From a virus: a stretch of DNA of 33,677 bases. This document shows, in pieces, positions 416 through 30,424 of this stretch. Both the position numbers and the translations under genes were made by a program. Where the stretch lies: IMG/VR virus record IMGVR_UViG_3300035670_009547, positions 1-33,677 of that record; one strand, given 5' to 3'. Positions within the stretch are counted from its first letter, which is position 1. Each line of letters starts with the position of its first letter. The notes beneath the pieces are model-generated. The model was not told where the DNA came from and made no database searches. It saw only the letters and a list, made by a program, of their open reading frames with translations.

Positions 416-3400
416 TTAGATATTCTCAAACGAAGCTCCTGTTGGAGTGATCAAGAATTCAATATCGATGAATTCAAGAGCCTTCGTTGGTTTTAAGTAG
501 ATCTTACCTGTCATTGTGTTTCTGTCCAAATCAGCAGGATCGTTAGAAACGGTTACACGGAAGTCGTATAAACCACGGTCTCTTCTGATTGCGTCAAGGA
601 TAGGATTCACTGAATCAAGGAAGTCCTGTCTTACTTTAGCGTCATTTTGTTCGAACAACAATCTAACTGCTACTGCTGAGATCAACTTACGAGCCTGTAG
701 TAATAATCTTCTTACGTTGATTCTGTTTAGAGCAGTGTCAGCGATTTGAAGAGTTTTGTTACCCCAAATTACAGTACCTACATCAGAGAAGGTAGCAATT
801 GGATTGATACGACCTTGGTAAAGAGTATCTCTTTGGTCTTGAGTTAGTTTGATACGAGCCTTCACAGCGTTTACCAAACCTCTTGTGTAACCTGCAGTTG
901 CGAACCATGGGAATGCGATGTTATCTGTAAGAGCCAAGTTTCTACAAACCTCGTTTGTTGGTGGGATGTAGATTTGAGTGTTATTTACAGTATCTCTAAC
1001 CAAGATCCATGGGTAGTAGGTTGCTGTGTAGTTAGAATCAATACCTGTGTTGTCCAAGTTATTTACCGCTTCTGTAGGAGGGGTAATGTTATCCGTATTA
1101 GTTGGAAGAAGGACATTACAGTCAGGAGTAGTTACGATGTAAAGAGAGTCAGCTCTTTGGTAAGTAACCATATCGATTGCTTGTTCAACCAAGTTTGAGT
1201 TTGTCAAGTAATCAATACCAGGAGTGGCAAACACGTTGATGTTTACTGCTTCAGGGTTATTGAATGTTGAAATACCCAACAGGTATGCGTAGTAGTCAGA
1301 AGTAGAGAACTCAGCGAAACCGTCTTGAGCGATCAACTTGAACGCTCCCCAACCGTCAGCCAATGGGTAACGGAGTGATTGACAAGCACCTCTCTGCCAT
1401 AATGAACCACCAATTTGGTATCTGTCATCATTAGTTCTGTACTCACGATAGATATCCCATCCGTCAAAACCACCTTGTAACAAGAATGCAAATTTACGTG
1501 ATTGGATTGTGTAGTATGGGTTTGCTGGATCTGTAGGATCTGATTGGAATGAAGTATCACCACAATCGAACGCTGGTGTACCAGCTGTTGGACCTGCAGT
1601 AATTGTAACAACAGTTGATCCCGAGTCCATGTGGAAACCTTTGGTTATATAATTCCAAGGTAATGAATCAACATTACACAAGTTGCTTGGTGCCTGTCTA
1701 CCTTTGTATTGGAAGAAATCAGGGTCGTAACCAATTTGGGACGATATACCCAAGAAGTTTCTTCTGATGTTATCACCAGGTGATAAAATTTGGTTAGGAC
1801 CAAATGGAATGTTGAAAGGTGGATTACCAATAACTTCACCTGGGAAGTTGTAAGCTGTTTTGTAAACAGGATATGGAGGTTGAGCTGAAGCGTAAGAACG
1901 GATTACATAACCTTCGAAACCACAAGGTAGAGAATCAGGTTGTGCTTTGTCGTTCAACTCCAACATGATGTACTTAGAAAGAAGTGCGTACTCACCATCA
2001 GCAGTACCCACTTTCACACCAATATAACTGTTACTTGTTGGGTCCATAGTACATTGAGTAAATTTCTCCAAGTAAACAGGATTTGAGTCAGTGTCAAAGA
2101 AACTTCTTACACCCAAATCAAACGAACCGTTATTGAATGAAATATTTTCAATAGTAATTTTCACTTGTGTATTAGCCCCGTTACCGTCAGCAATTGAGAT
2201 AATTCTAAACAGTCTGTCAACCGTAGTACCTTCAAGTTCAGAAACAACCCATGGTGACTCAGCATCTTGATATTTTTCAACGTAGTTAGCGATAGTTGCG
2301 GTATTTGGTGAGTATCTCAAACCAGGTAACGCTAAAGGAGCACACTGTAAACCACGAATAAATCCTTGGTTGTAACCATAGTTCAACATATTTTGGAATT
2401 GCTCCTCAACAAACAATGGAACCTCATTTCTTGGTTTACCGAAGTTTGTAATACCAAATACCTTCGTAATATAATTAGGATCACCACTATTCATAGAAGT
2501 TGCGAAAGAGAAGTCAGTACCGTCAGATGTTACACCCGAAAGATTGAATGTTGCATAAGGATTGAATGTAATACCGGAGTATATACCTGAACAATCAATA
2601 ATAACATCAGTGGTTCCTGTAACAGTGTAAGAAGGACCATGTTGATTATTACCATACAACGAGATTCCTCGAGATCTCCAAGTAGCAACCACCAAGTCAC
2701 CCCAACCATCGTAAGCCGTACCAACATAATTGAATACTGTTCCAGACACTGTTCCTGAGAAACATCCTGATGGACCGAAAGCCACCAACTGATCTACAAT
2801 TGAAACAAAAGAATAACCTGAATAATTTTGACCTGTAGTCAAATCAAAATTAGAGTAGTACCATGAATCATCATTAGGTGATGTGAAATCCGCAGTGGAT
2901 TCAGATAGACCAGAAACACCAAACACGTTTGTTGAGGCAGTATATGTTGGTGACAACGCGTTGAAACTCGGGTCGCTAATGGTACCGAAGTAAGAAGCTG
3001 AATAACCTGAAGATACAGGTAGATCCAAAATTCCTTGTAAAAAGTCAGACAAATCTGATTGTATTGTACTTTCACCACCGTTCAACATAGGATAAGGAGA
3101 AGTAAGATTTGCCAATATTTGTGGTGCAAACGCTCCATCAGTTGTAAATGTCACAGATGTACCACCCGAACAACCAGTGAATCCAATTTGGAATGCGGTT
3201 TCAGTTCCATCCAACGCCACTGTTGATGGATCAACGTTAGCGACAGTCAATAAAGACCAAGAAGGTCCTGCATCATAACCTGATAGACCAAGTACACGAG
3301 TTACGAATAATTGGTTAGATTGTTGTAGGTAAGATTTGGCAATGTATGCCAATTCATATTTAGGTATTTGTGTGTTTTCAAATTTCACTGGAAGAGTTCC

Positions 3401-3580
3401 ACCGAAGAAAGCTTCGAACTCATCGTAATTTGTTATAAAGATTGGCTCAAAAGCGGGACCGATTTGTGTTTCTCCAACCAGACCCAAAGTTGTCACACCA
3501 ACACTTTGAGCTACAAAACTCAAATCTCTTTCAGAAGTATAGACTCCAGGAGATACGAATATTTTATTTGATACTGCCAT
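416..3580 (-). CDS. gp18: Contractile tail sheath protein (T4 gp18-like), enlarged
   Basis: This 1054-residue protein forms the contractile tube around the tail tube of myovirus particles. The N-terminus has the family signature SPGVYTSERD, then a GPAFEP segment. The C-terminal ~170 residues carry the conserved core: an arginine-rich helix (NVRRLLLQARKLI), then YDFRV...N, and a last strand with LEFIDIEFLITPTG. T4 gp18 has 659 residues, so this one is much larger; Ser/Gly/Thr-rich sequence at about residues 120-380 looks like inserted surface domains. The start at 3580 is the only good ATG before the signature. A TATTTAT box lies 35 bases upstream, consistent with late expression. Confidence 0.93.
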   Translation of the reverse strand: MAVSNKIFVSPGVYTSERDLSFVAQSVGVTTLGLVGETQIGPAFEPIFITNYDEFEAFFGGTLPVKFENTQIPKYELAYIAKSYLQQSNQLFVTRVLGLSGYDAGPSWSLLTVANVDPSTVALDGTETAFQIGFTGCSGGTSVTFTTDGAFAPQILANLTSPYPMLNGGESTIQSDLSDFLQGILDLPVSSGYSASYFGTISDPSFNALSPTYTASTNVFGVSGLSESTADFTSPNDDSWYYSNFDLTTGQNYSGYSFVSIVDQLVAFGPSGCFSGTVSGTVFNYVGTAYDGWGDLVVATWRSRGISLYGNNQHGPSYTVTGTTDVIIDCSGIYSGITFNPYATFNLSGVTSDGTDFSFATSMNSGDPNYITKVFGITNFGKPRNEVPLFVEEQFQNMLNYGYNQGFIRGLQCAPLALPGLRYSPNTATIANYVEKYQDAESPWVVSELEGTTVDRLFRIISIADGNGANTQVKITIENISFNNGSFDLGVRSFFDTDSNPVYLEKFTQCTMDPTSNSYIGVKVGTADGEYALLSKYIMLELNDKAQPDSLPCGFEGYVIRSYASAQPPYPVYKTAYNFPGEVIGNPPFNIPFGPNQILSPGDNIRRNFLGISSQIGYDPDFFQYKGRQAPSNLCNVDSLPWNYITKGFHMDSGSTVVTITAGPTAGTPAFDCGDTSFQSDPTDPANPYYTIQSRKFAFLLQGGFDGWDIYREYRTNDDRYQIGGSLWQRGACQSLRYPLADGWGAFKLIAQDGFAEFSTSDYYAYLLGISTFNNPEAVNINVFATPGIDYLTNSNLVEQAIDMVTYQRADSLYIVTTPDCNVLLPTNTDNITPPTEAVNNLDNTGIDSNYTATYYPWILVRDTVNNTQIYIPPTNEVCRNLALTDNIAFPWFATAGYTRGLVNAVKARIKLTQDQRDTLYQGRINPIATFSDVGTVIWGNKTLQIADTALNRINVRRLLLQARKLISAVAVRLLFEQNDAKVRQDFLDSVNPILDAIRRDRGLYDFRVTVSNDPADLDRNTMTGKIYLKPTKALEFIDIEFLITPTGASFENI

Positions 3581-4895: not shown

Positions 4896-5410
4896 TATAA
4901 TCCTCTGAATTCATTTTCACTCACAGGAGTCGCAGTATAAGAAAAATAAAATTTCTTATAACCACCATATGTGTGTCTATTATCCCAGTTGGGAGATCCC
5001 GCATCAATAATTGAATAGTATCGTACTTGATTTTCGGTAATCCAATATCCAATGTAGTCACCGAGTTCAATGTTTGTTTGTAATTCCTCGAGTTCCTTTT
5101 GATAAACGTGGAAGTTCAAGACACCTGGTTCATTCTGAACAATTTTGGAGTTACCCAAGAACTGTTCTGTCGCACCATCAATCTTAACATAAGCATTGAT
5201 CGATACCGGTGCCAAGAATTGGATACCGTCTTTTACCACCTCACCATAAACATCATCGTTTACGGTTTTAGTTCGGTCAACCTTGTACAAAACAATTTGG
5301 AAATTCATATCACCATCAAGCCATTCTCGACCCATGTTGATATCCAAATCGAAATCTTCACTACCGAAGAATTTACCCAATCTTGTAATAGGAACTTGTC
5401 TCTGTGCCAT
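4895..5410 (-). CDS. Virion structural protein, candidate neck/head-tail connector
   Basis: The protein has 172 residues from the ATG at 5410. A start at 5431 would add seven residues overlapping the TATTTAT box and is less likely. It begins MAQRQVPITRLGKFFGSEDF and has alternating beta-strand sequence such as MNFQIVLYKVDRTK and IQFLAPVSINAYVKI, with a TYGGYKKFYF segment near the end. It is the first gene of a minus block leading to the sheath gene and has a TATTTAT box 8 bases before its start, as expected for a late virion gene. No enzymatic motif was seen. The neck assignment rests on synteny and is weak. Confidence 0.45.
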   Translation of the reverse strand: MAQRQVPITRLGKFFGSEDFDLDINMGREWLDGDMNFQIVLYKVDRTKTVNDDVYGEVVKDGIQFLAPVSINAYVKIDGATEQFLGNSKIVQNEPGVLNFHVYQKELEELQTNIELGDYIGYWITENQVRYYSIIDAGSPNWDNRHTYGGYKKFYFSYTATPVSENEFRGL

Positions 5411-5418
5411 CTTACTTG

Positions 5419-5425
5419 ATAAATA
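5419..5425 (-). promoter_or_regulatory. TATTTAT late-promoter candidate for the 172-aa structural gene
   Basis: The motif reads TATTTATC, 8 bases before the ATG at 5410. If it is a -10-type box the mRNA would be nearly leaderless. Confidence 0.5.
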
Positions 5426-5452
5426 TAACATAAATCATTATCTTTTTAGGCA

Positions 5453-7219
5453 TTGGAAGAACAAAGCAACATATTAGCCGTCGGGGTATTGGAACGTAAA
5501 GCCTTAGAATTATTGGAAAACTACGAAGGTGCCAATAATTACATCCTGCGTTTAAAAACCAAAATGTTGGATAATCCCAAGTTTTATCCAACTCGAGCAC
5601 AATCGGAATACATAATAAATTTTCATACAAGGGTTCCAAAGGTCGCAAAAAAATGGGTAGATTTAGATCCATATTTTGCACAAAAAATTGCGGATGACAA
5701 ACTGTTCACACAAGTACCCGAAAAAATCTACATTGAAAAACTTTTGATCGAGAAGGATACCTCATACCACATTTGGGGTAAATTTTTCGAAAAAGATTCT
5801 GTTCAAGATTTATGGTTACCAAAAGTAGCTCTTTTGAGAGATAACACCATAAAGAATGTTGTTATTGATTATACCAAATATTTTCACCGACCACCTTTGG
5901 AACACCAAAAGGAAGCAATTCAAAAATTGTGTGAAAATAAAAAGATGATTCTCGCTGATGACATGGGTCTCGGTAAGACCACATCCACAATCATCGCAGC
6001 ATTAGAAACAGGTGCAAAAAAGATTTTGATTATTTGTCCAGCATCTTTGAAGATCAACTGGCAAAGAGAAATTGAAAATTATACGAATCGTCCAACATCA
6101 ATTATTGAAGGAAAGAAATGGGAAGACGGAGACTTCGTAATCATAAACTACGATATTATCAAAAACTTCCACGATGAAAAAAATAAAAAAGAGTCAGTTA
6201 TTCTTAATTCTAAGTTTGATTTGGTCATTATCGACGAGGCCCATTACATTCAAAACAAACAAGCCCAAAGAACGAAACTTATAAATGATTTTGCTTCACG
6301 AGTAGATCGTCTGTGGTTACTAACGGGAACCCCCATCACAAGTCGTCCTATCAATTACTATAATCTTCTCAACCTTATCAACTCCCCCGTTGCTGAGAAC
6401 TGGATGGCATACGTCAAAAGATATTGTAATGGATTCCAATTTAGAGCTGGAAAAAGAAAAGTATGGAACGTCAGTGGTGCATCCAATTTGGAGGAACTCC
6501 GAGACAGAACAAAACCACAGGTTCTAAGAAGACTCAAAGAAAATGTTCTTGACCTACCCGATAAAATTATCACCCCAGTATATTTAAGACTTCGTTCAAG
6601 ACAATACGAGGAACTTATGGGTGACTACTATGATTGGTACGATAAGAGTGGTGAGGCGGATTCTCTGACCCTACAGTTCACCAAACTGACTCAGGTGAGA
6701 CAATGTATCGCACAGGAAAAAGTGTCTTCCACAATCGAGATATGTGAGAACATCATTGAACAGGACAAGAAGGTTATTGTCTTTACCAACTTCACCAAAA
6801 CCTTGGAGATGATATTGGAACATTTCGGAAAGAAGGCGGTTCGTCTTGATGGTTCGATGAATCAAAGAGAAAGACAAGAATCTGTCGACAAGTTCCAGAA
6901 TGACGATTCAGTCATGGTTTTTGTTGGAAATATCAAAGCCGCGGGTACAGGTATCACCCTCACATCGGGAGAAGCTGTGGTTATGAATGACCTTTCGTTC
7001 CTTCCATCTGATCACTCACAAGCAGAAGACCGAGCATATCGTTATGGTCAAAAAAATAATGTTTTGGTTTATTATCCCATATTTGACAACACAATAGAAG
7101 GTATCATTTACGACATTCTGAAAAAGAAAAAAGATATTTTTGAAACTGTTATGGGTGATAAAGAATCTACAGGTGATTACGTTGAGGAAATTCTCAAGTC
7201 AATTAATAGTAGAAGATAA
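5453..7219 (+). CDS. SNF2-family DNA helicase/translocase
   Basis: This 588-residue SF2 ATPase should translocate on duplex or branched DNA. Motif I is DDMGLGKT (residues 169-176), motif Ia is ICPASLK, motif II is DEAH (261-264), and motif III is TGTP (291-294). Motif V (AAGTGITLT) and motif VI (QAEDRAYRYGQ) lie in the C-terminal RecA lobe. The RYGQ ending and DEAH box are typical of the SNF2 group related to SMARCAL1, so likely roles are recombination or fork repair, as UvsW has in T4 by a different helicase family. The first ~140 residues have no clear domain. The start is a TTG at 5453, because a stop lies two codons upstream and the first ATG is 35 codons in. No TATTTAT box precedes it. 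Confidence 0.93.
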   Translation: MEEQSNILAVGVLERKALELLENYEGANNYILRLKTKMLDNPKFYPTRAQSEYIINFHTRVPKVAKKWVDLDPYFAQKIADDKLFTQVPEKIYIEKLLIEKDTSYHIWGKFFEKDSVQDLWLPKVALLRDNTIKNVVIDYTKYFHRPPLEHQKEAIQKLCENKKMILADDMGLGKTTSTIIAALETGAKKILIICPASLKINWQREIENYTNRPTSIIEGKKWEDGDFVIINYDIIKNFHDEKNKKESVILNSKFDLVIIDEAHYIQNKQAQRTKLINDFASRVDRLWLLTGTPITSRPINYYNLLNLINSPVAENWMAYVKRYCNGFQFRAGKRKVWNVSGASNLEELRDRTKPQVLRRLKENVLDLPDKIITPVYLRLRSRQYEELMGDYYDWYDKSGEADSLTLQFTKLTQVRQCIAQEKVSSTIEICENIIEQDKKVIVFTNFTKTLEMILEHFGKKAVRLDGSMNQRERQESVDKFQNDDSVMVFVGNIKAAGTGITLTSGEAVVMNDLSFLPSDHSQAEDRAYRYGQKNNVLVYYPIFDNTIEGIIYDILKKKKDIFETVMGDKESTGDYVEEILKSINSRR

Positions 7220-7230
7220 TAAGTTGGGGG

Positions 7231-7237
7231 TATTTAT
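7231..7237 (+). promoter_or_regulatory. TATTTAT late-promoter candidate for the superoxide dismutase fusion
   Basis: The motif lies 26 bases before the ATG at 7264. Imperfect complementary arms (7224-7232 and 7254-7260, TTGGG...TA with TACCCAA) flank it and could place it in a weak hairpin. Confidence 0.5.
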
Positions 7238-7263
7238 AATCAATAAACGATAGTACCCAAGAT

Positions 7264-8781
7264 ATGAGAAATATAAAAAACAAAATTCAAGTACTCGAAG
7301 AACGCATCCGACAAAACGAGCAACAACTTCACGAAGCCAAGAAAATCAGAGCCGAGAAATTACCTTACGGATATTCAGCCTTACGTCAGTTCATTGATCC
7401 AGAAACAATGAACATCCATTATAACAAACACTACAAAGGTTATATTACAAAACTCAATGACGCTTTGGAAGGTAAAAATTATGGTGATCTTTCACTGGAA
7501 GAAATTATTAAGACTATTGAAAGATTTTCCAAATCAATTCGAGATAACGCTGGGGGTGCTTACAACCACGCCATTTTTTGGAAAATGCTTTCACCAACAG
7601 AAAAAGAACCAAAAGGAAACATTCTGAAAAAAATCAATTCGAACTTTGGATCATTATCAAACTTCAAAAAGAAATTCGAGGATTATGCTAAGAAAAGATT
7701 CGGATCGGGTTGGGTTTGGTTAGTTCTAACCAAAAGAGGTTCGTTGAAAATTATGACCACCGCCAATCAAGATAACCCACTTATGAATGTCATCAAAGAA
7801 GGTGGACACCCTCTTTTGGGTTTGGATCTTTGGGAACACGCATACTACCTGAAGTACAGAAACAAGAGGGACGAATATATTAAAAACTTTTGGAAGGTTG
7901 TGAATTGGGATTTCGTCGAAGAAGAATTGAACCGATTGACAAATAAAAATGTTCAGGAAAGCACTTCAGCCAAAAGAATTCTAAAAGAACAGGCTCAATC
8001 GAGTGCCTGTTCAGATGACGAAAGAAAAAAAATAAGAATACTTTTCAATAACAATCCTGAAGTTTTAGAAATGTACAAAACTACCATTATGCAGTTTTTG
8101 GCGGATGTTTTCGCGAGCAAGTATTACACCAGAAACGAATATGGTCCGAATACCGCAGCAGGAATTTATGACTTGGAAAAACCAGGTAGATCTATTATCA
8201 ACTATTTGAACACAAACTATAGCGCGTTTTGTCCTTTACTTCGTGACTTGAATTTGGTTCTGACAAGAGCAAATGTTGAACCAATTGTATTTGATGGAAA
8301 AGATCCAAAATCTCAAGTAGACGAGATGGCTCGTATGTTAGGATTTATCAATCAATTAAAATTCAGAATTTTTGATCCGAGCTCAAAAACTTTCAAGACA
8401 ATATTCAAAGTTTTAAACGATACCTCAGGAAGAGGTGGAAAAACTGAAGATATTGTTGAGAAAAAATTCAATGAAAAATTTGGTAAAGAAAATGTAAAAA
8501 GGATTGGTGAATTGGGTAGTAAAGAAGATATGATGGGTGTGGACATCAAAGTTATGATTGATGGAAAACAAAATACCGCTCAAGTAAAACCTTTCACATC
8601 CATATCTAATGAAGATGGAATGTTGAAAATCGATGGGACTGCCAACGTAAAAAAATACAAAACAGATTGGATGGTTTTTGTAAGAAGAGGAAAAGATATC
8701 GTGGTGTTTGATAACAGTAACTCTGAAATCAAAGACGGTACATATTATTTTCCAGAATCATCGTTATTGTACCAATTCTAA
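7264..8781 (+). CDS. Mn-type superoxide dismutase fused to a PD-(D/E)XK nuclease-like domain
   Basis: The protein has 505 residues. Residues 1-30 are a charged, probably coiled-coil helix. Residues ~31-225 are a full Fe/Mn superoxide dismutase: metal ligands H52 (IHYNKHY), H102 (YNHAIFW), D188 and H192 (LDLWEHAYY), and active-site Y60. Gly98 in DNAGG and Gln169 in TANQDNP match the manganese rather than the iron type. The family converts superoxide to oxygen and hydrogen peroxide. Residues ~250-505 form a second domain with GVDIKV (D427) and AQVKP (Q440, K442), preceded by a glutamate-bearing helix near 395-399. This is the spacing of a PD-(D/E)XK nuclease core, but it is a tentative call. 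A TATTTAT box and structural neighbours downstream suggest late, possibly virion-linked expression. Confidence 0.9.
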   Translation: MRNIKNKIQVLEERIRQNEQQLHEAKKIRAEKLPYGYSALRQFIDPETMNIHYNKHYKGYITKLNDALEGKNYGDLSLEEIIKTIERFSKSIRDNAGGAYNHAIFWKMLSPTEKEPKGNILKKINSNFGSLSNFKKKFEDYAKKRFGSGWVWLVLTKRGSLKIMTTANQDNPLMNVIKEGGHPLLGLDLWEHAYYLKYRNKRDEYIKNFWKVVNWDFVEEELNRLTNKNVQESTSAKRILKEQAQSSACSDDERKKIRILFNNNPEVLEMYKTTIMQFLADVFASKYYTRNEYGPNTAAGIYDLEKPGRSIINYLNTNYSAFCPLLRDLNLVLTRANVEPIVFDGKDPKSQVDEMARMLGFINQLKFRIFDPSSKTFKTIFKVLNDTSGRGGKTEDIVEKKFNEKFGKENVKRIGELGSKEDMMGVDIKVMIDGKQNTAQVKPFTSISNEDGMLKIDGTANVKKYKTDWMVFVRRGKDIVVFDNSNSEIKDGTYYFPESSLLYQF

Positions 8782-8789
8782 TAATAAGA

Positions 8790-8796
8790 TATTTAT
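8790..8796 (+). promoter_or_regulatory. TATTTAT late-promoter candidate for the 372-aa structural gene
   Basis: The motif reads TATTTATA in the 31-base gap after the superoxide dismutase fusion, 16 bases before the ATG at 8813. Confidence 0.5.
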
Positions 8797-8812
8797 ATAG
8801 AAAAACCGTAGA

Positions 8813-9931
8813 ATGGCTGTTATACCGGAACCAGAAAGAACCAAACTCTATAACCGTATCTTAAATCTTTTAGGTGCACCACTTAGAGCTGTAGAATTGG
8901 AATATGAAATGATGGATTCTCTATTGGAGTTATCTATAGGAGACTATTCTCAATACCTTCAGGATTGGTTAATTGAATCTCAGTGGACATCTCTTTACGG
9001 ACTTAATTTGGAGACGGAATCTTTAGCAAACGCTCTTATAAGAAGATCATTAGATTGGGAAACCCAATACACATACGCATATTCAAAGATTGCCGGACTT
9101 CAGAATGCAGGACCATATGTCCTAAAAAGAGATTATTTTGATTTGGTTGCCGGTCAACAAATTTACGAGATTCCAGCATGTAGAGAAATCAACCAACTTC
9201 TTTGGTATTCACCAAGTGAAATGAACAATATGTTATTTGACCCATGGTCATTTGGCTCGTTTGGTGGTGGTGGAGGTCTCGGAGGGCCTGGTGGTTTCGC
9301 ACAAGCCGGTATGGGTGGAGGAGGATATTTCTTCTTCTCTTCCTATGACGTTATGTCAAGACTTCAAGATATTAACGTAAAAAGACGTTTGATCCAACCA
9401 GATTTACAATATCAAGTTACGGCATTACCTGATGGTAAAAAAGCCGTTTGGTTATTCAATACTCCAGGCGGTAAATTTGATTTCGGTGACAACGAACTGA
9501 TGAGAGGAAGAGTTTGGTATTGGTATTACGAAGTGTGTGGTGATGAAAGAGATTTGTGTCTCAAAAACAATCCTGATATTGTAAAATTACCATCAGACAT
9601 TCCACTTGATGAAATTATGTGGATTGACCTAAACGAACCCTCAAAAGTATGGGTAAGAAGGTGGTTCACCGCATATTGTAAAGAAACGTTAGCCAGAGTC
9701 AGAGGTAAATTTAGTGGAAATCTAAAAACACCTGACAGTGAGGTAACAATGGACTATCAATCTTTGCAGACAGAAGCAAAAGATGAAAAAGTTACATTAT
9801 TAACTGAATTACAAGGAAGATTAGAGAGGTTGAGACCTGAGAATCAAATGAAAAAAGAAGCGGAAATCGCAACCAATTTGAATACTCAACTGAAGTATAG
9901 ACCTATGACCATTCCAATTACAGTAGTATAA
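8813..9931 (+). CDS. Virion structural protein, candidate T4-like neck protein
   Basis: The protein has 372 residues. The N-terminal half is helical (VELEYEMMDSLLELSIGDYSQYLQDWL) and there is a glycine-rich loop at about residues 149-177. The C-terminal part has WVRRWFTAYCKETLARVRGKF, then LKTPDSEVTMDYQSL and a charged helix with RLERLRP. That C-terminal order (basic helix, a PD/PGG-like turn, long helix) resembles neck proteins of T4-like marine phages, but the match is from memory of the pattern only. The late-type TATTTAT box supports a virion role. No catalytic motif was seen. It reads into the next plus gene with a 1-base gap. Confidence 0.5.
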   Translation: MAVIPEPERTKLYNRILNLLGAPLRAVELEYEMMDSLLELSIGDYSQYLQDWLIESQWTSLYGLNLETESLANALIRRSLDWETQYTYAYSKIAGLQNAGPYVLKRDYFDLVAGQQIYEIPACREINQLLWYSPSEMNNMLFDPWSFGSFGGGGGLGGPGGFAQAGMGGGGYFFFSSYDVMSRLQDINVKRRLIQPDLQYQVTALPDGKKAVWLFNTPGGKFDFGDNELMRGRVWYWYYEVCGDERDLCLKNNPDIVKLPSDIPLDEIMWIDLNEPSKVWVRRWFTAYCKETLARVRGKFSGNLKTPDSEVTMDYQSLQTEAKDEKVTLLTELQGRLERLRPENQMKKEAEIATNLNTQLKYRPMTIPITVV

Positions 9932-13579: not shown

Positions 13580-15250
13580 TTAGGATTCTTTTCTCAAACT
13601 ACCTTCGTAAAATTCAAACCTATCGTGTTCGGTGGGGGTCATCAATAGCATAGCAGGATTGATGTTTCCAGCAACGGTTTCTTGATACATGTAACTCATC
13701 CATGTTTGTTCAAAAGGGTGAGCCCACTTTTCAGTTAGGAACATTTTTTTGTTACCTGACTTTGTTACCACTTGTGGCCAGTTACAATAATAAATTTCCC
13801 CATCGATAAAAGGTACCCCTTTATAACTTCTAATGTGTTTGAACAAAGTTCGTGGGGCATTGGGATCTTGACCATGGACAGGAAGTTGACTTTTTTCAGG
13901 CCACCTCTGTTCACGATAAAACTGTGGTACATTATACCATGACCATTGAGTTCCATTATCACCAAAAAACTCAGTGTAATTCAATTTCAAAAAGTCATAA
14001 TTGTATTTTTTTGATATCTCCATGGAAATCTTATAGAGATTTTTCACATATCTGTTAAATCCGTTTTTACACACGGTACCCTCATTTGGGAAGAAGAACA
14101 TATCATCTTCAAAAAACCAATAAAAATCGAAGTTTTCTTGATCGGCATGTTCGGCAATCCACTGTCTACCACCACAAATACCCAAATTATCTTTTTTTAC
14201 GTGTTCAAAACCATATTGATTACATAACTCAGAATATCTATCAAACGTAGAAAGGTCGGAAGAATTGTCTAACAAAATTTTTCTTGGTTTGTTTATGAAA
14301 TCCGTATCATATTCTAACATTGATTTGATAAGAGTCTCGAATTGGTTGGGACTATTGAATGTAATTACATATAATCCTGTGTTCGAAATGTCCAAGTTTT
14401 CAATTGATGGCGCAATAGGTGTTTTTGATTTTTTTACTAAAGAATCATTTTTGAGATCTTCAAAGAATTTGGAAACCAACCCATTGTTTTCTATTTCAAA
14501 ATAATTTATAAGATCGGGATGTTTGTAACATAAAATGGTAAATAATGATTCTTCAGTACCCATAAGCCCCGATTTCAAAGTACTACTCATCAAGTTGTAG
14601 TATAGTCCATTCAGATCCGAAATACTTTCCTTGGGGCCTCCGAAAAAACCACCACGGGCGACCATATTTACTTTGTCACCAACAAGTTGATTCAATCGTG
14701 AAAAATTAAAACCATGAATTTCAGTGTTAGCATCATAAGGAAAACATATAAAAGAAAACTTGTCAAAATATTTTGTCAATTTTTCTTGTACCTTATCGTG
14801 TGTAAAATATCCGGGATGAACAGTGTTAGTAAGACCGGCATCAATCCAAAATAGATAGTCTGAATCGAACTGATCCATGATCTTAGCATCATGAATTAGG
14901 AACATTTTTGACATTACCAAAGGATTGTACATCTCAAGTTTTGCTTGTGTTGATTCACTCAACCAACCCGCTTGAGAATACCAATCAGGGTTATTTCTAA
15001 TGTTTTGAATATCACTAAAAAATTCGTTTTTGAACCATTCCTGACTTCGATTAATAAATTGAGTATTTTCTCGTTTTCTATGTTTCCATACAAATGACTC
15101 CAATTCAGATTCACCAAAAATAATCATGTTGATATCAACTTGTAAGAGTTGTTCAAACTTTTGAAGGTAATGATCAAACGATCTTGACCATCCTTCTCCG
15201 AGAGTATCTCTCTTAATATCCCATAATCCTGTTACAAATGTGACTTTCAT
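13580..15250 (-). CDS. Two-domain glycosyltransferase (HtrL/WlaTC-like plus GT-A-like)
   Basis: The protein has 556 residues. The first ~270 (VTFVTGLWDI, MYNPLVMSKMFLI, YLFWIDAGLTN, then RGGFFGG) match the HtrL/YibB/WlaTC family pattern found in surface-polysaccharide loci. The second part (from about residue 290) starts LYVITFNSPNQFETLIKSML and has a FFEDDMFFFPNEG acidic motif typical of a GT-A nucleotide-sugar metal site. It also has a late GEIYYCNWPQV segment and a WAHPFEQTWMSY helix. Two catalytic units in one chain would let it add two sugars or act processively. It is the last gene of the minus cassette, starting one base after the methyltransferase stop. The acceptor is unknown. Confidence 0.75.
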   Translation of the reverse strand: MKVTFVTGLWDIKRDTLGEGWSRSFDHYLQKFEQLLQVDINMIIFGESELESFVWKHRKRENTQFINRSQEWFKNEFFSDIQNIRNNPDWYSQAGWLSESTQAKLEMYNPLVMSKMFLIHDAKIMDQFDSDYLFWIDAGLTNTVHPGYFTHDKVQEKLTKYFDKFSFICFPYDANTEIHGFNFSRLNQLVGDKVNMVARGGFFGGPKESISDLNGLYYNLMSSTLKSGLMGTEESLFTILCYKHPDLINYFEIENNGLVSKFFEDLKNDSLVKKSKTPIAPSIENLDISNTGLYVITFNSPNQFETLIKSMLEYDTDFINKPRKILLDNSSDLSTFDRYSELCNQYGFEHVKKDNLGICGGRQWIAEHADQENFDFYWFFEDDMFFFPNEGTVCKNGFNRYVKNLYKISMEISKKYNYDFLKLNYTEFFGDNGTQWSWYNVPQFYREQRWPEKSQLPVHGQDPNAPRTLFKHIRSYKGVPFIDGEIYYCNWPQVVTKSGNKKMFLTEKWAHPFEQTWMSYMYQETVAGNINPAMLLMTPTEHDRFEFYEGSLRKES

Positions 15251-17327: not shown

Positions 17328-18038
17328 TTATTTTACAGGATGTGAATTACTTATATACTCTTCCAATTGACTTACGTGACCCCATAAATCACTGTAAGAT
17401 GTGAATTGAGTGGATAATGATTTTTCATAAGTCAAACCTTTGTAGAAGGTTGGTAAGATATTCAAAGGTTGATCTAATTTATAAAAGTCAAAACTGTTCG
17501 GGTCAGATACTACCTCTTTACCATAAACCGCTAAGGTCAATAATTCGTCAGGTAACAAATTATTATGATTATCGTGAGGATACACCGGATAAGTCTCCAA
17601 TAAATGCTTCGCAAAATCTTTTTTTATCAAGTAAGATTGGGCGTGGGATGCCGATGACACTACGTAACATTTGTTCTTATATAACAATGGATCTCTTCTA
17701 TTTCTACATCCGAGCCAAAAAACATCCCAATCAGTGTTATTTATATTATCGAAAATCTCGTCAGATTCATCTATCAGTAAATCTAAAAACATACAATCGT
17801 CTTCTAATACTAATAAAACTTCATGATCTGAATCGACTAATTTTTGATATAACTCAAAGTGACTTCTTTTACAATTCACAGTAGCTGTGGGTGTGTTATT
17901 TACAGCACTAAATCTTTCAACACCTTCGATTTTAAATTTTGTAAATTGATTTTCCAAAATCTCTTTACGATCAACTCTTTTGTCCAAATTGATGTAATAA
18001 CCTATATCAGCAATCTTTTTTCCGTTGAACGTTACCAT
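17328..18038 (-). CDS. GT25-family glycosyltransferase
   Basis: The protein has 236 residues. GYYINLDKRVDRKE at the N-terminus is the GT25 signature (INLDxRxDR), NCKRSHFELYQ matches the conserved CxxSHxxL region, and VLLVLEDDCMFLDL gives the ED(D) metal-binding motif. LPDELLTLA further on fits the late GT25 acidic block. GT25 enzymes include LPS galactosyltransferases in bacteria and collagen galactosyltransferases in animals. It lies second in the minus cassette, two bases after the GlcNAc-type gene. Confidence 0.87.
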   Translation of the reverse strand: MVTFNGKKIADIGYYINLDKRVDRKEILENQFTKFKIEGVERFSAVNNTPTATVNCKRSHFELYQKLVDSDHEVLLVLEDDCMFLDLLIDESDEIFDNINNTDWDVFWLGCRNRRDPLLYKNKCYVVSSASHAQSYLIKKDFAKHLLETYPVYPHDNHNNLLPDELLTLAVYGKEVVSDPNSFDFYKLDQPLNILPTFYKGLTYEKSLSTQFTSYSDLWGHVSQLEEYISNSHPVK

Positions 18039-18040
18039 AA

Positions 18041-19288
18041 TTATAAATTACCCGTAATTCTCTCACACCATCCCTTAGATGTTGAGTATGGCCATACAAC
18101 CCAATAAGTTGGTTTTGTTTCGGTTTGGAATTCTCTCCACACTTTACCGTATCCATCAGGATCATTCATGAGTCGGTCAATTTCTGACTTATCAGCGTCT
18201 TTTCTAAATAAAGTTTCATCGTTGGGTCCATGGAAAGCTACCACCCAAAATTCGTAATCTTTTTCAGGAACCGAGCTGTAATTGATGTCAATACAATGTT
18301 TAAAAACAGAAGCAAAATTCTTTTTCCATTCTTCTTCAGTTTCGTAATTATATGGATTTGGTGGATAATGTTTATCCAAGGTGTATTGTTGGACTGCTCT
18401 TTTCTCAAACAGAATACCCGCATATTTTTCATAATCCCTGAGACTTCTTTCAGTACCAAAACCAAAAGGACCATCGTGACCTTCTTGTTCCAAACCATCC
18501 ATACCGAAGAGTTTTCTGTTCGCTAAGTGAGATTTATTATTTCTATCAACCCATTTAGTATCATCATCCCACTGTTTAGTACGACCTTTACGGGTATATT
18601 CATGCCATATTAGGACCTTATGAGGGTGAAATAAATCATATCCCCAAGTATATGCTCTTGCCGATATTGAAATCTCTTCACCATGAAAATAATATTCGGG
18701 ATTATGTTGTACTTCAGTACTGAACTGACCAAGAGTGAACGCGTAATGAGCTGAATAAAATCTCGCGGGAACAGGTTGTTTCATATCCTTCCAACCTGGT
18801 ATGGTTTCAGGTAAGAAAAATACCGCACCCTCTGGAATAAATCTGTCAAATACCATTCTCCATGGTTCTTGTACTCTACCTTGTGGATCATTATCAGGGT
18901 CAAATGATGAAACATATCCAGTTAATAAGGGTTTCTTGTACCCTTTTTTCTGAAGTTGTTTCACCATCTTAATCATTTCATCATCCCAATTTGGTGCAAA
19001 TCTCATGTGAGAGTCAATTTGTAGGGTGTATTCTTCACCATCATATAATTGTTGAACCAAATTTCTTGCCCAACAAACACCTTCAGCCTCTTGATATGGA
19101 ATGTTCAGGATTCTAAATCTACTATCATTTTCAAACTGAGATAAGTCATCAAATTTGTCATCAGGACTAAATTGTCTAGCAATACCGATTCTAAGATTTT
19201 TAGGTCTTTTGGCGTTTTCGATCATGTTTTGGATTGTCGGAATCAATTGAGGATCCCTGTACGATGCAATTTGTACAAAAATTTTCAT
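18041..19288 (-). CDS. GlcNAc-transferase family glycosyltransferase (Skp1-type)
   Basis: The protein has 415 residues starting IFVQIASYRDPQL, the hallmark of the family typified by the protist Skp1 hydroxyproline GlcNAc-transferase. EEYTLQIDSHMRF carries the DxH/DxD-like metal site. YYFHGEEISISARAYTWGYD and PHKVLIWHEYTR are the conserved C-terminal blocks. In eukaryotes such enzymes attach GlcNAc to hydroxyproline; in phages and bacteria the acceptor is unknown. It opens the minus glycosylation cassette, behind the terminator at 19313. No TATTTAT box precedes it. Confidence 0.82.
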   Translation of the reverse strand: MKIFVQIASYRDPQLIPTIQNMIENAKRPKNLRIGIARQFSPDDKFDDLSQFENDSRFRILNIPYQEAEGVCWARNLVQQLYDGEEYTLQIDSHMRFAPNWDDEMIKMVKQLQKKGYKKPLLTGYVSSFDPDNDPQGRVQEPWRMVFDRFIPEGAVFFLPETIPGWKDMKQPVPARFYSAHYAFTLGQFSTEVQHNPEYYFHGEEISISARAYTWGYDLFHPHKVLIWHEYTRKGRTKQWDDDTKWVDRNNKSHLANRKLFGMDGLEQEGHDGPFGFGTERSLRDYEKYAGILFEKRAVQQYTLDKHYPPNPYNYETEEEWKKNFASVFKHCIDINYSSVPEKDYEFWVVAFHGPNDETLFRKDADKSEIDRLMNDPDGYGKVWREFQTETKPTYWVVWPYSTSKGWCERITGNL

Positions 19289-21937: not shown

Positions 21938-24241
21938 TTATTGGAAACTATTAAAATCAACACTTAGGACATCACCATCTTGTCTACTAAAATCAAACGT
22001 TTGGGTTACATCACTACCACTTGGATTCGCTCCACTTGTCACAACACCCAATACAAACCCATTTTTCTTTACGGTAATTTCTGTTCTATATCCTGCAGCA
22101 CCAACACCACCTTGCGGAACCATTGCAGTAACCTCAATAGCACCTCTCACACAACTATCAGAATTTCCCAAATCACCCGCGACACTAACAGTAGTACTCA
22201 AAGAAGATTTAGCAACCGAACCAGTATTTGTTGTAATGACAGAACCATTCCAATATCCTACAACTGCCGATCCTCTTGAATATGACACAGGATCTGGTCC
22301 ATCAAGTACGTCAGATGATAACCCTGTCTCGACAACTTGTTCACAACACTCACATTCAGGATTTATATAACCATTCAATGGTGTAACGTTCAAAGCACAA
22401 ACCGTAAATGCGTAGTATGGGTTTGTGTTTAATATTGTTACAGTTCCATCACAATTAGTAATTGTATATGTTTCAGATTGCATCGAATATAAATTATACG
22501 TAGAACAACATGGTGGAGTTGCCGACGGGGTAGGTGTATTCGTTGGTGTTTGTGTTGGCGTAAAATCAGGTGTAGAACTTGGTGTAACAGTTGGAGTTAC
22601 AGTTGGTGTCACGGTAGGTGTAGAAGTCGGAGTCGGAGTTGGGGTTTCAGACACCGCAAAAACACAATTACAATCTTCACCCTCAACAATTTGTAAATTA
22701 CAGTCCAAACCATTAGGTGAGAAAGTGATTGAATTAGGGATGGCACATATTACAATTCCTGTTGAGGTTCGACTCAATACCAAAGTTTGTTGGTTGAACC
22801 CACAATCCAAATAATTCAATGTAAAACCAGTACATTCTCCTATTGGGATGACACTTATAGTATGGGTTCTACAACAATCCTCTGGTAGACCCGTTGAAGA
22901 TGGTGTTATTGTAGGTGTGACAGATAATGTAGGTGTTTGACTTGGTGTCAAACCTGGCGTATTACTCGGTTCTGGTGTTGATGTTATTGTTGGTGTTGGT
23001 GTCGGAGTACTACTGACTGATGGGCAATCCACCAATCCACCTAACCAATACTGATTACCACCTATTGTAACATATTTGTCGGCACTTCTTCCACTAACTA
23101 AGTGGATTTGTGTATTACCAGTGTCGGAAAAACATGTTGTTTGACCGGTATATGGTGAAATGTTTAGTTCGTTGACAATCTCATTGATCGGAATGTAGTA
23201 TCCTTGATATGTTGATGCAGCAAACGCTTGACCAACAATTTTTCTTTGACCACCAAATTCTGCAGCAACCGCCGATCCTGAATCTCCCGGATAAATCGGG
23301 TAAGGACAAATATTTCCGACGGGTGTTGTTGTTGCAGAAGCAACAAACTGTGTAATACCATTGAATGTTAGTAATTGTCCAACACCCTGTTTTGGATACC
23401 CGAAAACTAACTGTGTTGTGTTGGTCAAAGACACAATCAATTTCATATCCCCCTCACCTTTAGCACCAGTAGTTCTTCCTGAGGAATAGAGATACTTGTT
23501 GTAAGGAACAATGGAGTTCAAATCTGAAACTGAGGCAAAATCCATGGGAGAAGTCCATCCAGTCATACCCACTTGTTTGTATGATTCGGTTGATGAAATA
23601 TCGCCCGAACCAAGAGTAAACAATGCGGTATCTACTTTGTTTGTACTTGTCGTACTCAGTGGAACATATTTTTTTACAATACCAACACTATTCTGAGAAC
23701 CATAAAATCCCGCTTCCCATCCTGGTTGGATAACCACGTCATTCACCACATTTGTAATTGGGGTGGGTAGGGTTTTCTGATTATTATAAAAGGCATCATC
23801 GATGATAACGTGAGCATTTGTTACACCACAAACTGAATTAGTGTCATTATCAACGGCAACAAAACCAAACGTACCAACACTGTTACTCATACTGGTGACA
23901 TTGGTCAATGAAATACCTCCTTGGACGGGTCGGAATATTCCCCTGTTTGGTGGTGGAACTGTTTGCCAAGTGTAGAAGTCATTTGGACAATCCGCAACCA
24001 TCGTAGGGATTTCGAATTCCACAACATCAGTTATAAACTCAGTATCGTCAATTGTAAGTTTTTTTGGTATAAGTTCGTTTTCAGGAATTTCAGATAATAG
24101 TTTTTTTTCCAAAACTCCAAATACCAATCCAATATCATCTGTGAGAACACCACCCACAGTTTTACGACCATAACCAACCATCACCACATTATCTGAGGTG
24201 GAGTCAAATAATTCTTGAGTAATCTCGTTTAGATGTCGCAT
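21938..24241 (-). CDS. Trypsin-like serine protease domain in a tail-fibre protein with Thr-Pro linkers
   Basis: The protein has 767 residues. Residues ~105-360 are a trypsin-fold protease: GVTNAHVI (H144), KVDTALFTL (D204) and YPGDSGSAV (S321) place a His-Asp-Ser triad at the usual spacing, with VGQAFAAS following. Residues 410-450 and 531-577 are Thr-Pro linkers separating a small Cys-rich module (DCCRTH... to CNC). The remaining C-terminal ~190 residues are beta-rich with further cysteines (CECCE) and end in a VDFNSFQ-type strand. Possible roles are self-cleavage during fibre maturation or cutting host surface proteins. A TATTTAT box lies 18 bases before its ATG, inside the end of the preceding gene. 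Confidence 0.85.
22511..22651 (-). repeat. Thr-Pro linker in the protease-fibre gene (distal)
   Basis: This tract encodes residues 531-577, including a triple TPTV-type run. It is the same repeat type as the 640-aa fibre stalk. Confidence 0.85.
22892..23014 (-). repeat. Thr-Pro linker in the protease-fibre gene (after the protease domain)
   Basis: This tract encodes residues 410-450 directly after the protease domain, connecting it to a cysteine-rich module. Confidence 0.85.
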
Positions 24242-29209: not shown

Positions 29210-30424
29210 ATGTCCAAAATTAAGTTGTTGGTTATTCCCTCAGATAAAACAGGTGTTGGTAAATTCAGATCTTTAGATCCTCATATTTTTTTACAAAATT
29301 TATATCCCGATGATTTTCATATTGATATCATGTATGATGTCAATGTTAACGATGATTCGTTTTGGGAAGAATATCAAATCGTACATTTTCACCGTACTAT
29401 CGGTCCAAACTATGATATAATGGAATCTTTATTATCCAAATTAAAATCTTTTGGTGTGGTAACCATTATGGATTTGGATGATTATTGGCTTCCTGGAAAA
29501 GAACACCCCATTCATGACTTAATCATGGCGAACAAGTTACATGAAAAAATTGTCCGTAATTTGAAAAATGTACAACATGTAATTACTACAACCTCAATTT
29601 TCGCAGAAGAAATTAAAAAACACAACAAGAATGTCGTTGTATTTCCAAACGCTATCAATCCCAATGAACCTCAGTTTAAGGAAAAAACACAACCATCGGA
29701 AAAACTACGTTTTGGTTGGTTAGGTGGTTCTTCTCACTTACACGATTTAATGATTTTGGAAAGTTTATTCACCAAATCATCACCAATCAAAGATAAAACA
29801 CAATTTTATTTGTGTGGTTTTGACATGAGAGGTACTGTTACAGAAATAAATCAACAAACAGGCGAACAAAAACAAAGACCCATTCAACCAATGGAAACTG
29901 TATGGTATAAGTATGAAAATATTTTTACCAACAAATATTCCATGATTTCACCCGAATATAAAAACTTCCTCATGTCATTCAAAGAGGAAGATGATTCAAA
30001 GTTTAGTAATGAGTTTTATCGAAGAGTTTGGACTAGACCAATTCAAAGCTACGCCAAAAACTACTCTAAATTTGATGTTTCTATGGCTCCACTAAAAAAT
30101 CATATTTTTAACCGTGTAAAATCACAGTTGAAAGTTATAGAAGCGGGCTTTTACAAAAAAGCCCTCATTGCTTCAGACTTGGGTCCCTACACAATTGATT
30201 TGAAACATTCATTAGAAAATGGTAACTTTGTGAATGGAAATGCATTATTGGTGAAAGAAGGGCGTAATCATTCAGACTGGTTCAAATACGTAAAAAAATT
30301 GGTCGACAACCCATCTTTTGCGGAAGATTTGGGTGAAAGATTATATGAAACTGTTTCACCAGTTTATGATATTAATATTGTTACAAAAGCTAGAGCAGAA
30401 TTTTATAAATCGTTGATCAAATGA
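29210..30424 (+). CDS. GT-B type glycosyltransferase
   Basis: The protein has 404 residues. The N-terminal lobe has VVTIMDLDDYWLPGK, then HVITTTSIFAEEIKKHNKNVVVFPNAINP, the typical link into the second lobe of GT4-like enzymes. LRFGWLGGSSHLHDL starts the C-terminal Rossmann lobe and NRVKSQLKVIEAGFYKKALIASDLG supplies the E-x-x donor-binding helix (normally near the EAx7E motif). These enzymes transfer a nucleotide-activated sugar. Unlike the minus cassette it sits with DNA-metabolism genes. It overlaps the exonuclease gene by four bases (ATGA). Confidence 0.82.
   Translation: MSKIKLLVIPSDKTGVGKFRSLDPHIFLQNLYPDDFHIDIMYDVNVNDDSFWEEYQIVHFHRTIGPNYDIMESLLSKLKSFGVVTIMDLDDYWLPGKEHPIHDLIMANKLHEKIVRNLKNVQHVITTTSIFAEEIKKHNKNVVVFPNAINPNEPQFKEKTQPSEKLRFGWLGGSSHLHDLMILESLFTKSSPIKDKTQFYLCGFDMRGTVTEINQQTGEQKQRPIQPMETVWYKYENIFTNKYSMISPEYKNFLMSFKEEDDSKFSNEFYRRVWTRPIQSYAKNYSKFDVSMAPLKNHIFNRVKSQLKVIEAGFYKKALIASDLGPYTIDLKHSLENGNFVNGNALLVKEGRNHSDWFKYVKKLVDNPSFAEDLGERLYETVSPVYDINIVTKARAEFYKSLIK

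Follow-up and report, generated by a model that had tools for sequence, protein, structure and literature searches.

A gene for superoxide dismutase and a predicted nuclease beside a neck gene

The window, the whole stretch of viral DNA that was analysed, is 33,677 nt long. An ORF on its plus strand (7264-8781) starts with ATG and encodes 505 amino acids, in exactly the frame that an earlier sequence-only reading of this DNA had given it. The gene and its neighbours comprise the following features, in which a slash within a motif marks a predicted cut:

5453..7219, plus strand: UvsW-like helicase gene, constant upstream neighbour (PHROG 62, E=4e-115; synteny)
7231..7238, plus strand: TATTTATA box, late-promoter-like element (kept in orthologues)
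7264..8781, plus strand: SOD-nuclease precursor gene (505 aa; syntenic orthologues)
7264..7335, plus strand: N-terminal leader, residues 1-24, helical, ending QLHE/A; capsid-targeting-like propeptide with the first predicted site, E24 (conserved Glu, disorder)
7354..7938, plus strand: Mn/Fe superoxide dismutase (SOD) domain, residues 31-225 (ligands H52, H102, D188, H192)
7957..7959, plus strand: E232 (VQE/S), second predicted prohead-protease site (conserved Glu, disordered linker 228-245)
7987..7989, plus strand: E242 (ILKE/Q), third predicted prohead-protease site (conserved Glu, disordered linker 228-245)
8008..8385, plus strand: helical region ahead of the nuclease core, residues 249-374, with a conserved NTNY motif (present in SOD-less orthologues)
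8386..8778, plus strand: predicted PD-(D/E)XK nuclease core, residues 375-505, with E395, D427 and Q440-x-K442 (fold and invariant residues)
8790..8797, plus strand: second TATTTATA box, ahead of the neck-protein gene (sequence)
8813..9931, plus strand: head-tail adaptor (gp13-like) gene, constant downstream neighbour (PHROG 211, E=1.4e-9; synteny)

In the loci examined, the sheath gene, g347 and g178 lie on one strand, and uvsW, the nuclease gene with or without its SOD part, the gp13-like neck gene and g111 lie on the other, followed by polB. The head-tail adaptor-like protein is the structural neighbour that the sequence-only reading had pointed out, and the assignment to a T4-like phage was also supported.

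The same reading had noted a late-type box, which was found again in relatives: TATTTATA, exact or as the one-base variant TATTTA, precedes the start codon in 34 of 37 representative orthologues. In relatives it also lies 20-39 nt ahead of most portal, protease and scaffold genes, and of its 33 copies in a 171-kb relative, 23 are no more than 40 nt upstream of an ORF on the same strand, versus 3 of 33 copies of the reverse complement. The element is the reverse complement of the T4 box TATAAATA and is the form used by this phage lineage; a canonical T4 late box TATAAATA on the strand of the gene was rejected. By its sequence and placement, TATTTATA is a putative late promoter, and since portal, protease and scaffold genes have it in common, the SOD-nuclease gene carries a head-gene signal.

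The first half is an intact Mn-type SOD

The first half of the protein had been read as a full Mn-type SOD with ligands H52, H102, D188 and H192, together with Y60 and the Gly98/Gln169 pair, and Pfam, a structure match and residue invariance all agree with this. Both SodFM domains are present (Sod_Fe_N, E=8e-21; Sod_Fe_C, E=2e-41), and the best solved structure for this part is the S. aureus MnSOD 5n56 (E=1e-61, residues 31-223). The three His and one Asp metal ligands and the gateway Tyr of the SodFM family are all in place; H52, H102, D188, H192, Y60, G98 and Q169 are invariant in the window and in all 110 distinct homologues with the fusion. The second-sphere residues are of the Mn type as well, with Gly98/Gln169 and, before Asp188, Gly186-Leu187, the counterpart of Gly159-Leu160 in S. 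aureus MnSOD. A Gly-Leu pair ahead of the ligand Asp marks Mn preference in SodFM, so that the match suggests that Mn is favoured (PMC7264356). The domain is thus full and intact, with Mn as the metal predicted from its residues.

The phage SOD has all ligands and second-sphere residues in common with bacterial SodFM proteins such as 5n56, but it differs from them by its N- and C-terminal extensions, its fusion and a phage clade of its own. In the SOD tree, the fusion SODs form one clade (100/99.9) separate from the sampled cellular SODs, and the next set outward adds eight others, which a separate tree groups as Sphingobacteriaceae (Bacteroidota). Because the cellular sequences in the tree were picked by similarity, an origin of the SOD in Bacteroidota is a lead only. 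Standalone SODs of jumbo phages (PA5oct EST35_0261 and that of Vibrio phage 2.275.O) belong to the SOD family too, but are shorter, unfused and only about 26-31% identical to the fusion SOD. EST35_0261 (L313, 1510-2058) is named ‘hypothetical’ and seems to be without part of the canonical alpha-hairpin segment; its record carries the note ESI-MS/MS, which may refer to detection in the virion.

The second half has a predicted PD-(D/E)XK nuclease fold

Residues 249-505 gave no convincing match in Pfam, PHROG, NCBIfam, PADLOC or PDB sequence and profile searches. Specifically, no sequence-profile match to a known PD-(D/E)XK member family was found in Pfam, PHROGs or PDB profiles, and no PADLOC model for a known anti-phage defence protein matched. 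We modelled the whole chain with AlphaFold2 (pLDDT 82, pTM 0.51); the domains are confident internally, and residues 18-25 and 228-245 are disordered (pLDDT below 50). Residues 296-505 reached a pLDDT of 83, and in a Foldseek search of this part against the PDB the top 25 matches were all PD-(D/E)XK nucleases, including I-Ssp6803I, NhoI and archaeal Hjc. The matches reach moderate significance (best E=4.6e-3, probability up to 1.0), which makes the fold assignment good, not overwhelming. The active-site layout E...D...(E/Q)xK is present as E395, D427 and Q440-x-K442, with QxK where (D/E)xK is usual. The fold search and the invariance of these residues accord with the earlier proposal of a PD-(D/E)XK-like second half built around D427 and K442, and the C-terminal half is, by its modelled fold, a predicted nuclease. 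It has the fold and the E...D...QxK layout in common with I-Ssp6803I, Hjc and NhoI, but shares no sequence similarity with them and adds the N-terminal helical region with NTNY.

We consider it highly improbable that this domain is a catalytically dead nuclease fold, a DNA-binding or structural part of the head in which E232 and E242 would have a structural role only. Such a role would fit with QxK in place of the usual (D/E)xK and with the lack of a sequence match to known nucleases; however, E395, D427, Q440 and K442 are invariant and are kept even in an SOD-less protein, about 25% identical, of a different phage, the 735-kb uncultured one, and this suits an active site. Standalone distant homologues of the nuclease were seen in that phage (L082, 5713-6639) and in L216 (3020-3838), in both cases away from the syntenic neighbours.

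A distinctly unlikely alternative, which is compatible with the explanation that we favour below, is that the nuclease completes heads at the neck in the manner of T4 gp4, working on the ends of the packaged DNA before the tail is attached, with the SOD riding along and protecting this step or the portal region. In nearly all of the syntenic loci that were checked, the gene lies next to the head-tail adaptor gene, and the T4 gp4 ‘head closure’ protein has, by eye, PD-(D/E)XK-like residues. However, a profile comparison found no similarity to T4 gp4 (hhalign probability 0.1%; a weak test, with a single gp4 sequence), and gp4 has only 150 aa and is sited elsewhere in T4. Sequence homology of the nuclease to gp4 was rejected on this profile comparison.

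The fusion is common in uncultured T4-related phages

Fused homologues were collected from four IMG/VR scans, taking the best 80 loci per scan, with some contigs counted more than once. This set comprises at least 216 fused ORFs, at least 110 of them distinct, all with intact SOD ligands; the nuclease motif is intact in all but one truncated ORF. The SOD domains of the distinct sequences are at least 55% identical, and the mean pairwise identity in the fused set is 0.71 for the SOD versus 0.45 for the nuclease core. The sequence-only reading had called SOD genes rare in tailed phages and had named no described SOD-nuclease fusion; by these numbers the fusion is common in an extensive group of uncultured, T4-related phages from water, not the peculiarity of one phage. 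An assembly artefact, which that reading had considered, or a one-off fusion is ruled out by the 110 distinct sequences and the conserved synteny in related phages.

Among INPHARED isolates, no record covers 80% of the query, and a search with the nuclease alone had as its sole match the 735-kb uncultured phage. The isolates whose capsid proteins come closest, Flavobacterium immuto phage and Microcystis phage Mel-JY01, have neither the nuclease nor the SOD. For cellular genomes, one contig scan with two SOD peptide patterns gave SOD matches only, none extending beyond residue 258, and a fusion there was rejected. The literature searched on phage SODs yielded no description of an SOD-nuclease fusion. 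In UniProt, A0A6J5L953 from an uncultured Caudovirales phage (501 aa; 48% identity over 481 alignment columns) is apparently the same fusion, labelled only ‘superoxide dismutase’. On contig L111, the SOD and the nuclease are encoded by two ORFs that overlap in different frames (5252-6013 and 5980-6813), which reflects either a gene that is naturally split or a frameshift from sequencing.

SOD was gained once and lost repeatedly

In some phages, SOD-less orthologues of roughly 280-320 aa occupy the same locus. Five SOD-less contigs (61-309 kb) carry no SOD anywhere on them, and seven fusion contigs carry exactly one each, within a frame of 509-540 aa. With two distant SOD-less relatives as the root, the nuclease tree shows a single SOD gain, at the base of the clade or earlier, and at least two losses; in a tree of UvsW and the neck protein, the SOD-less group is nested within the SOD group. 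Compared with its near relative L273, contig L241 shows a clean in-frame excision that joins EMKKIEIEKL to KSIISEG, its leader (...EMKKIEIEKL) being followed by KSIISEGKSERCS... Leaders of SOD-less members are short, e.g. MTTVKTSTYLILLTE/K, which resembles the start of T4 IPI, MKTFKEFTSTTTPVSTITE/A. The nuclease is thus the conserved core of the gene and the SOD a dispensable cargo, and the natural excision of SOD alone indicates that a covalent link between them is not needed.

Candidate prohead-protease sites flank the SOD

The T4 prohead protease gp21 cleaves after L/I-X-E (PMC9026906), a loose motif that arises by chance. Three candidate sites of this kind were found in the SOD-nuclease. 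E24 is Glu in only 104 of 111 sequences, with L/I/V at P3 in 103/111 and mostly M or A at P1' (variants LFLNE/M, LLITE/M, QQLHE/A); Met at P1' is unlike the T4 gp23 and IPI sites, but occurs in the gp21 self-site region of relatives (LIE/M). E232 is Glu in all 111, with L/I/V/M at P3 in 111/111 and S/T at P1' in 102/111 (variants KLNE/S, KTVKE/S). E242 is Glu in 110/111, with L/I/M at P3 in 110/111 and G/Q/S/A at P1' in 107/111 (variants VISE/G, ILKE/Q), and in some orthologues it reads FLTE/A, the T4 gp23 site. Three of the eight near-invariant Glu columns of the SOD-nuclease fit the motif, all outside the folded domains; as background, six neighbouring proteins with 2,487 columns in total have 54 near-invariant Glu columns, 3 of which fit. 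This enrichment, calculated by hand on few columns, has a hypergeometric p of about 0.02.

Relatives encode a gp21-type protease (Peptidase_S77; PF03420, E about 1e-24) and a gp23-type major capsid protein (MCP; PF07068, E about 1e-64); the 33.7-kb window fragment has neither of its own. In direct alignment, the T4 gp23 site FLTE/A falls on LINE/A in six of six relatives and on IVSE/A or LISE/A in Flavobacterium and Microcystis phages, and the gp21 LIE-9 region aligns with GILIE/M or GILVE/A. The features of a gp21 substrate found here are thus a protease and MCP in relatives and an L/I-x-E after an N-terminal leader. An N-terminal motif census of one whole relative was not discriminating alone.

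Several unrelated proteins have N-terminal tags in common, such as ‘RILNLHESATKxxYLxEQ’ or ‘MKKVIRLTESDLTRIIxRVIxEQ’ (L306, 7907-11959; L315-L323, the 171-kb relative, 105382, 125705 and 126638); these tags resemble capsid-targeting leaders with a protease-type site at their end.

A processed internal head protein as the probable explanation

We regard it as probable that the gene encodes a prohead-processed internal head protein, in which an SOD cargo lies between a leader and a core head nuclease, is freed in the capsid and is injected. The gene would be a late gene of a far-T4-type phage, and its precursor would enter the prohead via the N-terminal leader. The gp21-type prohead protease would then cut after E24 and after E232/E242, which would remove the leader and free the Mn-SOD, which would dimerise, and the PD-(D/E)XK nuclease. 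Both enzymes may stay in the capsid and leave with the DNA into the host. The nuclease would be the ancient, retained function, processing DNA either as heads are completed or once inside the new host, and the SOD, acquired once between leader and nuclease, may guard the DNA in the capsid or a freshly infected cell against superoxide. The host is probably a member of the Bacteroidota; the closest isolate capsid proteins include those of Flavobacterium phages and a Microcystis phage, and the Bacteroidota TAnnTTTG promoter was not enriched in the window.

Association with the virion, suggested by the sequence-only reading, is made probable by the motif, protease and late-box evidence. The mature product is probably not a single bifunctional chain, since protease-type sites flank the SOD and natural deletions drop SOD alone. 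We consider it unlikely that the protein stays uncut in the cytoplasm as a bifunctional enzyme, or is simply the product of an auxiliary metabolic gene (AMG), whose late SOD detoxifies superoxide in the dying host while the nuclease of the same chain degrades or processes DNA. The SOD is indeed fully intact and more conserved than the nuclease, jumbo phages have standalone SOD-family genes, and phage SODs have been proposed as AMGs that buffer stress (PMC12542629). However, the conserved Glu sites occupy the disordered linkers that flank the SOD, the position by the neck gene is fixed, the box is common to head genes, and the link between the two domains is dispensable. An unpackaged SOD that works in the cytoplasm at a late stage of infection is also conceivable.

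A processed internal head protein has known counterparts. The T4 internal proteins (IPI, IPII, IPIII and Alt) also combine a leader ending in L/I-x-E with diverse cargo, and the T4-type prohead protease and gp23-type capsid belong to the same phage lineage as the SOD-nuclease. The SOD-nuclease differs from them in having two enzyme domains with sites between them and SOD as cargo, and its packaging is a prediction. Fusions to the T4 capsid-targeting sequence (CTS) bring foreign enzymes into heads, including EcoRI endonuclease and staphylococcal nuclease (PMC9026906). Polyvalent proteins of phages and conjugative elements are multi-enzyme chains for which packaging, processing and injection have been proposed; their processing is ascribed to built-in peptidase domains, whereas that of the SOD-nuclease would be due to the phage prohead protease (PMC5512222). 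Pfam found no built-in peptidase domain in the SOD-nuclease chain, and the word ‘superoxide’ is absent from the text of the polyvalent-protein paper (PMC5512222).

If the favoured explanation is true, a common aquatic phage group carries an antioxidant enzyme inside its particle, phage survival or early infection is linked to reactive oxygen in sunlit water, and phages can insert an enzyme cargo into an internal head protein and lose it again by simple in-frame deletion. As a less probable extension, the leader-nuclease gene may be a natural cargo slot, with enzyme domains swapped between prohead-protease sites and the SOD injected with the DNA against the host oxidative response, as a virion-delivered antioxidant counter-defence; such a slot could bear on loading proteins into phage heads. 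The analysis also names a widespread, unannotated family of predicted PD-(D/E)XK head-region nucleases, and the predicted cut sites offer a direct way to test the idea.

Other genes in the window

The tail sheath protein at 416-3580 has 1054 aa, and only its last ~290 aa fit known sheath profiles, which leaves about 760 aa unexplained. A 767-aa protein (21938-24241) has an N-terminal match to the phage protease PHROG 20754 (E=1e-13), and its C-terminal part recurs in the neighbouring 649-aa protein (PHROG 15511). Glycosyltransferase genes lie at 13580-15250, 17328-18038, 18041-19288 and 29210-30424, with matches to HtrL/YibB with weak TAGT and HMC-glucosyltransferase, PHROG 24687 (E=8e-171), PHROG 2835 and PHROG 7162. 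Their targets may be DNA or a surface, and modified phage DNA could be shielded from the phage's own packaged nuclease.
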